This document shows positions 13,734 to 16,702 of a stretch of 64,000 nt of DNA, in pieces. The stretch comes from Oasisia sp. SBJ-2009 (lineage: Eukaryota; Annelida; Polychaeta; Sabellida; Siboglinidae): contig OZ024854.1 of the NCBI GenBank assembly GCA_964017155.1, forward strand, positions 18,037,555-18,101,554. The letters run 5' to 3'. Numbering within the stretch: the stretch's first letter is position 1; the number at the start of each line of letters is the position of its first letter. A program made the position numbers and the translations under genes. The notes under the pieces were generated by a model. That model made no database searches. It had not been told where the DNA came from and worked only from the letters and a program-made list of their open reading frames with translations.

Positions 13734-13830
13734 CTACACTTGGTGGTCGTGGAATCTTCGGTTGTCCTGAGCTTCCCGCACAATCCTCTCTTTCTCCTGT
13801 TGCACCATCTGTGACCCCTTCATGAGTTCA
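13734..13830 (-). CDS. LRRC74A: LRRC74-like exon 16 (terminal)
   Basis: Acceptor TTTCAG at 13831-13836. The first base completes Ser 756, then Glu 757 fills position 12 of the second EF-hand loop. ELMKGSQMVQQEKERIVREA follows, then a basic/His tail ending HDHQV and TAG (13736-13734). The segment looks helical and charged. The acceptor and the first 18 coding bases are the unit repeated about 67 times just upstream. Confidence 0.85.
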
Positions 13831-16702
13831 CTGAAACACACGACCCCTTCATGAGTTCACTGAAACACACGACCCCTTCATGAGTTCACTGAAACACACG
13901 ACCCCTTCATGAGTTCACTGAAACACACGACCCCTTCATGAGTTCACTGAAACACACGACCCCTTCATGAGTTCACTGAAACACACGACCCCTTCATGAG
14001 TTCACTGAAACACACGACCCTTCATGAGTTCACTGAAACACACGACCCCTTCATGAGTTCACTGAAACACACGACCCCTTCATGAGTTCACTGAAACACA
14101 CGACCCCTTCATGAGTTCACTGAAACACACGACCCCTTCATGAGTTCACTGAAACACACGACCCCTTCATGAGTTCACTGAAACACACGACCCATTCATG
14201 AGTTCACTGAAACACACGACCCCTTCATGAGTTCACTGAAACACACGACCCCTTCATGAGTTCACTGAAACACACGACCCATTCATGAGTTCACTGAAAC
14301 ACACGACCCTTCATGAGTTCACTGAAACACACGACCCCTTCATGAGTTCACTGAAACACACGACCCTTCATGAGTTCACTGAAACACACGACCCCTTCAT
14401 GAGTTCACTGAAACACACGACCCCTTCATGAGTTCACTGAAACACACGACCCCTTCATGAGTTCACTGAAACACACGACCCCTTCATGAGTTCACTGAAA
14501 CACACGACCCTTCATGAGTTCACTGAAACACACGACCCCTTCATGAGTTCACTGAAACACACGACCCCTTCATGAGTTCACTGAAACACACGACCCCTTC
14601 ATGAGTTCACTGAAACACACGACCCCTTCATGAGTTCACTGAAACACACGACCCCTTCATGAGTTCACTGAAACACACGACCCCTTCATGAGTTCACTGA
14701 AACACACGACCCCTTCATGAGTTCACTGAAACACACGACCCCTTCATGAGTTCACTGAAACACACGACCCCTTCATGAGTTCACTGAAACACACGACCCC
14801 TTCATGAGTTCACTGAAACACACGACCCCTTCATGAGTTCACTGAAACACACGACCCCTTCATGAGTTCACTGAAACACACGACCCCTTCATGAGTTCAC
14901 TGAAACACACGACCCCTTCATGAGTTCACTGAAACACACGACCCCTTCATGAGTTCACTGAAACACACGACCCCTTCATGAGTTCACTGAAACACACGAC
15001 CCTTCATGAGTTCACTGAAACACACGACCCCTTCATGAGTTCACTGAAACACACGACCCCTTCATGAGTTCACTGAAACACACGACCCCTTCATGAGTTC
15101 ACTGAAACACACGACCCCTTCATGAGTTCACTGAAACACACGACCCCTTCATGAGTTCACTGAAACACACGACCCCTTCATGAGTTCACTGAAACACACG
15201 ACCCTTCATGAGTTCACTGAAACACACGACCCCTTCATGAGTTCACTGAAACACACGACCCTTCATGAGTTCACTGAAACACACGACCCCTTCATGAGTT
15301 CACTGAAACACACAACCCTTCATGAGTTCACTGAAACACACGACCCCTTCATGAGTTCACTGAAACACACGACCCCTTCATGAGTTCACTGAAACACACG
15401 ACCCCTTCATGAGTTCACTGAAACACACGACCCCTTCATGAGTTCACTGAAACACACGACCCCTTCATGAGTTCACTGAAACACACGACCCCTTCATGAG
15501 TTCACTGAAACACACGACCCCTTCATGAGTTCACTGAAACACACGACCCCTTCATGAGTTCACTGAAACACACGACCCCTTCATGAGTTCACTGAAACAC
15601 ACGACCCCTTCATGAGTTCACTGAAACACACGACCCCTTCATGAGTTCACTGAAACACACGACCCCTTCATGAGTTCACTGAAACACACGACCCCTTCAT
15701 GAGTTCACTGAAACACACGACCCCTTCATGAGTTCAATGAAACACACAATTTCTTCTATCTTCTTGCGTTCACTGAAATACATGACCCCTTCATTAGTTC
15801 ACTAAAACATATGACCTTTCATGAGTTAGCTGAAACGCAAAACTTCTGATGAAATGATTGCAAGTGAAGGTTTCATGCATTTAACGATGTAGCATTCCAT
15901 TATGAAATACTAAACGGTTTGGTGCTTAAATCTAATTAGAATAGTGTAATTCAAAATACAAGCAATACAAAATGGATGACCATTTTATAATATATTCCTT
16001 TCAAATGAATGCATAATATTTGTTCTTTTGGTGTTAGTATATGCAAATAATTGTTACTTGGGAAATTTCCCAGAAAGACAAAGGAGCCAATGGTGAGCAT
16101 GGAGAGAGAGTCTTGGTGTAGTATTATAATAAAATGAATGATGAATGATAACAATCTCACCTAAACTCTATCGTTCCACTTCGATCTGAGTCGAGCTCCT
16201 CCAGAAGCATGTCCAGTTGTTTCTGTCAACAGCACATTAATCTCACCATTGATATAACAATTTCTTTCTTATATAGCGAGCACCCCATCCAAATAATTGT
16301 TCTGGGGCGCTTTACAATAATTCTCCCTAATTGAGTTAAAATAATAATATTAAAAATAAATAAATAAATAAAACACTAATACAATACTACTTTGATAGGA
16401 TATATGCATATGATAATAAAGACAATCAGGTTCCCTTACCAACATAAATTAGCACACAACTACTCGGCGCATACAAAATAATAATAATAAATAAATATAT
16501 GGTGTAATCACCATTTAAAACTGTTATGAGGGATACATGCACGTGAAGTGTCCTCTGACAATGATAGCCCAATGAAATTTAATAACATCTATCTAAGGAA
16601 ATATATAATATACAGTGGTGTCTGGTTTATCTGCACATGTAGGTTTCCAAGGATTTTTGCTGGATAAATAAAAGTCCAGATCACAAACAACCAGATTATT
16701 GA

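Follow-up and report, generated by a model that had tools for sequence, protein, structure and literature searches.

A tandem array of 70 head-to-tail 29-bp units lies across the predicted intron-exon boundary of the last exon of an LRRC74-like gene in the window, the whole 64,000-nucleotide stretch of Oasisia sp. DNA analysed here. The array is confirmed in the sequence as given, and its size makes a chance model unnecessary. It is probably a neutral minisatellite of the type called mirages in amphioxus, with most splicing predicted to use the copy adjacent to the exon body.

The LRRC74-like gene

The minus strand carries LRR exons followed by an EF-hand 1 exon and by the start of EF-hand 2, all with phase-consistent joins, and both the LRR and the EF-hand families were matched in Pfam. 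Two protein searches, which scored just the candidates with the most shared words, gave 300 matches (340-residue query) and 317 matches (455-residue query) at E 0.001 or better. Among the best 120 of each, the relatives are LRRC74A/B-like, with identities of up to 46% in molluscs, 46% in Branchiostoma floridae and 41-42% in named sea anemones and corals. No transcript of the organism itself was found among these matches (best 120 of 300 and best 120 of 317), where the top LRRC74 identity is 45-46%. With its LRRs, its C-terminal EF-hand pair and its similarity to named members, the gene is, by sequence, a distant LRRC74A relative. The assignment to LRRC74 and the exon boundary proposed in the first-pass annotation are thus upheld by homology and by the consistent exon phases. 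The model is composed of the following features:

About 30426-30256, minus strand: upstream exon, placed by tblastn with relatives, acceptor guessed
26888-26826, minus strand: upstream exon, placed by tblastn with relatives
25235-25126, minus strand: upstream exon, placed by tblastn with relatives
24694-24587, minus strand: LRR exon
23930-23837, minus strand: LRR exon
23167-23037, minus strand: LRR exon
21947-21861, minus strand: LRR exon
21695-21580, minus strand: LRR exon
20388-20310, minus strand: LRR exon
19935-19846, minus strand: LRR exon
17019-17177, minus strand: EF-hand 1 exon, DKDHSGDITLEE
16161-16222, minus strand: penultimate exon, KQLDMLLEELDSDRSGTIEF, ending in phase 2 inside EF-hand loop 2, with donor AG|gtgaga
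13734-13830, minus strand: predicted last exon, with S-Glu-LMKG completing EF-hand 2, a 26-residue tail and TAG, joined in phase 2 to 16222-16161
13128-13133, minus strand: AATAAA, 601 nt past the stop codon and likely the polyadenylation signal

Two parts are missing from the model: the N-terminus, and a short exon, coding for about 40 residues in relatives, that was looked for between 19846 and 17177 and not found. Read-through beyond the penultimate exon gives AGG TGA, which adds an Arg and ends the frame with a stop at EF-loop position 11; a last exon is needed because this stop falls inside EF-loop 2. At the site of SELMKG the relatives have SELLRG (Nematostella), QELMTG (Branchiostoma), NELLEG (Tubulanus) or RDILSG (Haliotis rufescens). 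No tRNA was found in the window, nor any Rfam family at gathering scores.

In a tree of 33 rows, the window protein was placed with the nemertean Tubulanus (support 91/86). This pair adjoins a clade of 15 molluscs (99/98), with the window protein outside that clade and apart from the two Branchiostoma species. Among sets that include the window protein and comprise no more than half the rows, none reaches the strong-support mark of 95/80. On this tree, a lophotrochozoan is at most a best guess for the animal.

Mammalian LRRC74A is described as a newly assigned distal-lobe protein of the N-DRC in the sperm axoneme (PMC11779644), and its named relatives share the LRR domain and the EF-hand region with the window gene. 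By analogy with this axonemal protein, the window gene may have a ciliary role.

Other frames were observed around the gene. A 298-residue minus-strand open frame at 35847-36740, rich in D, G and H, has one RPW motif resembling those near the N-terminus of the mollusc relatives, and is by sequence a possible N-terminal exon of the LRRC74-like gene. Two plus-strand open frames, 45723-46154 and 49134-49454, resemble, as we take it, an adiponectin receptor (PAQR family) and are possibly the next gene. At 6014-7588 (minus strand), a 525-residue open frame corresponds to the reverse transcriptase of a non-LTR retrotransposon. A portion of it has many relatives at 90% or more among the matches listed (best 120 of 579); such RT matches fill this third protein listing, which consequently says little about LRRC74 transcripts.

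The array and the products of its copies

TRF returned one tandem array at 13813-15836 (period 29, 69.9 copies, 97% matches, score 3803), which on the minus strand reads as a chain of TGTGTTTCAG|TGAACTCATGAAGGGGTCG. Each 29-bp unit takes 11 bases from the intron and 18 from the predicted last exon, in agreement with the repeat unit spanning intron end and exon start that had been recognized before. About 67 acceptor copies had been announced for 13734-15760: there are indeed exactly 67 CAG|TGAAC junctions, their first exonic base going from 15772 down to 13830 on the minus strand, while the array itself extends to 15836 and comprises 70 units. Counting the degenerate copies 15829 and 15801, 69 of the 70 units are preceded by AG; the 70th (15736) has CAT before it. 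The parts of the array are:

13813-15836, minus strand: tandem array, 29-bp unit, 70 units
13831-15707, minus strand: 65 interior units, of which 55 are identical, 8 are 28 bp long and 2 carry G>T
15708-15829, minus strand: 5' array edge, with degenerate copies 15829, 15801 and 15772 and the consensus copy 15736
15829, minus strand: edge copy, CAG|CTAAC, with a stop directly after Ser
15801, minus strand: edge copy, TAG|TGAAC
15772, minus strand: edge copy, 36-bp unit

In the interior (n = 65, from 15707 to 13831) the 55 identical units are those of the 29-bp consensus. In seven of the eight 28-bp units the sole departure from it is a GGGG>GGG contraction. Contraction of a G run is a typical long-read error, and for this reason the 28/29-bp distinction may be due in part to sequencing error. 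The motif CTCAT is present in 65/65 interior units, and in those copies that were scored its A lies 22 nt ahead of the following exon start; the minimal 3' splice site (CTCAT plus AG) attributed to each unit in the first-pass annotation was thus recovered throughout the interior. The two edges of the array are different. The 3' edge is undiverged, with a perfect repeat through GGGGTC followed by the unique exon sequence ACAGATGG. The 5' edge is worn: three of its four units are diverged, and the fourth (15736) has kept the consensus but the AG preceding it has become AT. The copy number is that of a single assembled sequence, i.e. one haplotype.

To place the array among the other repeats, both ends of 13 exons were compared with 27 repeat stretches hand-picked from the TRF output, a selection that omitted the short-period rows and one row of period 16; the array at 13813-15836 alone contains an exon end. 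Three others come within 60 nt of an exon end and do not contain one (20430-20635, 21471-21531 and 23766-23797). In the first of them, 21/42-bp repeats stop 42 nt short of the acceptor of exon 20388-20310, on its upstream side, and the boundary is not crossed. Three of the exon ends entered in this comparison were misplaced by 1-7 bases, with no effect on its outcome. Elsewhere, a 27-bp array of about 29 copies (37342-38127) lies upstream of the placed LRRC74 exons and is open over nearly all its length on the minus strand (267 residues), and a 24-bp array of 72 copies (52802-54538), into which a long plus-strand frame runs, reads as PSSPEHRE-like repeats on the minus strand.

The penultimate exon was joined to each of the 69 AG-preceded copies. 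The predicted product ends in SELMKGSCVSVNS for 55 copies (13 residues counting S), in SELMKGRVFQ for 7 (10 residues) and in SELMNGSCVSVNS for 2; the 5 others give single-case tails, including the 32-residue tail at 13830 and the Ser-stop at 15829. The tail lengths proposed earlier (12, 9 and 31 residues) are the same ones, which become 13, 10 and 32 when S is counted. The Glu at position 12 of EF-hand 2 is supplied by 68/69 copies and SELM(K/N)G is encoded by 67/69, which contradicts the initial idea that copy 13830 alone joins in phase 2 and alone provides this Glu. The ancestral boundary is nevertheless best sought at copy 13830, since unique sequence comes after it.

These products were then scored against a profile of 13 relatives from which the window protein was left out. 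The EF-hand read into the intron scored 28.5 bits, compared to 41.6 bits with SELMKGSCVSVNS, 44.9 bits with SELMKGRVFQ and 45.7 bits with the full 32-residue tail. SELMKG followed by shuffled tails scored 41.3 bits on average, and 13/200 of them reached 45.7 bits; the tail beyond SELMKG is therefore not detectably conserved, and it was not taken as evidence that 13830 is the copy in use. To judge from these scores, the conserved part of the last exon falls inside the repeat unit and the tail beyond it appears free or nearly so. Use of an interior copy would then cost the protein little, leaving an intact EF-hand with a short, different tail.

Described boundary minisatellites

The first-pass annotation knew of no described case of this scale. 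At least two systems are of the same kind, the amphioxus mirages (PMC3087553, PMC3902484) and the human ABCA7 VNTR (PMC5954066). Mirages are minisatellites lying over intron-exon boundaries of Adh3, troponin C and the globins BflGb6 and BflGb9, and similar imperfect repeats are reported for amphioxus PGBD5 (PMC3087553, PMC3902484). Data on Adh3 and RT-PCR on the globins suggest that they do not interfere with regular splicing (PMC3087553, PMC3902484). In lancelets, such arrays have been suggested to occur throughout the genome.

The likeness to the present array is close. In both, the repeat spans an intron-exon boundary (a predicted one here) and many units carry splice signals (PMC3087553, PMC3902484), 69/70 units being entered via AG in the window. 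The 29-bp unit is within the Adh3 range of 10-72 bp (PMC3087553, PMC3902484). Mirages have a concerted interior from which the cluster boundaries are excluded (PMC3087553, PMC3902484); in the array the interior is concerted (55/65 identical) and the 5' edge diverged, the 3' edge not being so. There are also differences: two BflGb6 haplotypes have 6 and 3 copies, against about 70 here (PMC3087553, PMC3902484), the genes are others, and the window protein does not group with those of lancelets.

In human ABCA7, intron 18 carries a polymorphic VNTR of about 12-427 copies of a 25-bp unit whose GT is a splice donor, and splicing to an extra unit has been observed (PMC5954066). Frame-shifting isoforms reach 14 +/- 6 and 2 +/- 1%, neither varying with VNTR size; these percentages are lower bounds, the transcripts being subject to NMD and increased by cycloheximide (PMC5954066). 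By our reading, the 14% correspond to a cryptic acceptor in exon 18 and the 2% to retention of a single unit. This array exceeds the present one in copies, and unlike it is on the donor side of an internal exon, with its length affecting the skipping of exon 19 (PMC5954066), whereas here it is the acceptor of a terminal exon that is repeated.

Finally, boundary minisatellites with units averaging 30 bp change gene structure in human segmental duplications and some activate cryptic splice sites; they differ in having four copies on average and in the gain of introns, no single acceptor being multiplied (PMC2812944). No acceptor-side array as large as this one was met in the open-licence literature, covered mostly through titles and the openings of abstracts. 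Boundary minisatellites are thus already known, and what is notable here is apparently the copy number and the occurrence in an animal group outside lancelets.

Use of the copies and origin of the array

Which of the copies would be used? The interior copies have 7/15 pyrimidines and a preceding AG 16 nt upstream, and on these two measures the array acceptor ranks last in strength among the 12 gene acceptors compared. Interior and terminal copies match upstream, so that nothing in the acceptor by itself singles out the last copy. The exon body behind copy 13830 contains a purine run, AGGAGAAAGAGAGGA, which is a weak candidate for an enhancer (runs of at least 14 occurred in 1158/20000 shuffles).

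Two structural features were considered and rejected. Masking of acceptors by RNA structure does not set copies apart, the unpaired probability being 0.30 on average for 61 interior copies and 0.28 for 13830. Three units as RNA fold to -27.2 kcal/mol (z -3.4 against ordinary shuffles), and 215/1000 tandemly repeated shuffled units fold as well; a single RNA unit was matched by 20/200 shuffles, its best rotation by 151/500 and, as DNA, the single unit by 22/200 and 136/200 on the two strands. The unit hairpin was not retained.

Splice-site choice is subject to general proximity effects. These effects, and the described tendency for the first AG beyond a branch point to be preferred (PMC7317903), could favour the upstream copies. 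Most transcripts would then have mainly a short tail (SELMKGSCVSVNS or SELMKGRVFQ) and only a minor part the 32-residue tail, with a C-terminus that is neutral or mildly altered rather than regulated. We hold this to be unlikely, although all interior units have the branch-like CTCAT and an AG and no conservation of the tail is detectable past SELMKG. The first-AG preference itself (PMC7317903) leaves the choice among copies undecided, because every interior unit has its own branch-like motif. Moreover, the first AG of the array is that of 15829, which leads to the Ser-stop: with 8/15 pyrimidines and a branch-like motif of its own, this copy would be used under a strict upstream preference and EF-hand 2 would be broken. 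Nothing in the sequence of 15829 explains its disuse. The amphioxus and ABCA7 precedents also favour the exon-adjacent copy (PMC3087553, PMC3902484, PMC5954066).

Another reading takes the array as a regulatory bank of acceptors, its copy number setting the ratio of long- to short-tail LRRC74 or the speed of splicing under selection. The 69 possible serial acceptors, 68 of which provide Glu 12, are what such a bank would need, and the length of the ABCA7 VNTR can alter splicing, via skipping of the next exon (PMC5954066). We regard this reading as quite improbable. Use of an extra ABCA7 unit is constant across VNTR sizes in the same report (PMC5954066). The copies at the 5' edge have decayed, one having lost its preceding AG and another giving the Ser-stop, and the profile of 13 relatives revealed no conserved tail to be regulated. 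Repeat turnover by itself is expected to give a uniform interior, and the evidence comes from one individual of one species. In its fullest form, this idea makes the array a working bank of about 69 near-equivalent 3' splice sites, in which a ciliary calcium sensor would have two C-terminal forms, mixed in proportions dictated by copy number, and the EF-hand would be protected by having its last residue coded in the repeat; to this we give very little credence.

It is equally very improbable that the assembly inflated or distorted the copy number of a locus with few copies: short near-identical arrays are hard to assemble and seven of the eight 28-bp units show a G-run contraction typical of read errors, but the decay of the 5' edge and the scattered substitutions are unlike a simple looped copy, and there is no N anywhere in the 64-kb window. 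One mirage was apparently misassembled in the lancelet draft (PMC3087553).

The neutral boundary minisatellite could have arisen as follows. A single acceptor, ancestral to the array and with an end such as ...tttcag|TGAACTCATGAAGGGGTCACAG, would have been duplicated, and the duplicated boundary would then have expanded via slippage or unequal exchange, processes that would maintain uniformity in the interior even as the 5' edge decays. Exon definition can favour the exon-adjacent copy, which has the real exon body and its 3' end behind it. Were an interior copy taken by mistake, EF-hand 2 would still be completed and the variable tail alone would change. The expansion may have been tolerated because the exon-adjacent copy retains the exon body and 3' end and because S-Glu-LMKG sits inside the unit. 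The array is then likely a large example of a known boundary repeat and not a control switch.

The array provides a natural test of acceptor choice, with dozens of acceptors that have identical upstream sequence and identical first 18 exon bases. As they differ just in position and in sequence farther downstream, transcript reads would weigh distance, order and exon body against each other. Boundary-spanning minisatellites also appear to extend beyond lancelets to another animal group. Lastly, the array illustrates how such growth could do no harm where conserved codons are part of the repeat: with these codons in the unit, a harmless expansion is easily understood and a tuned isoform switch is less needed.
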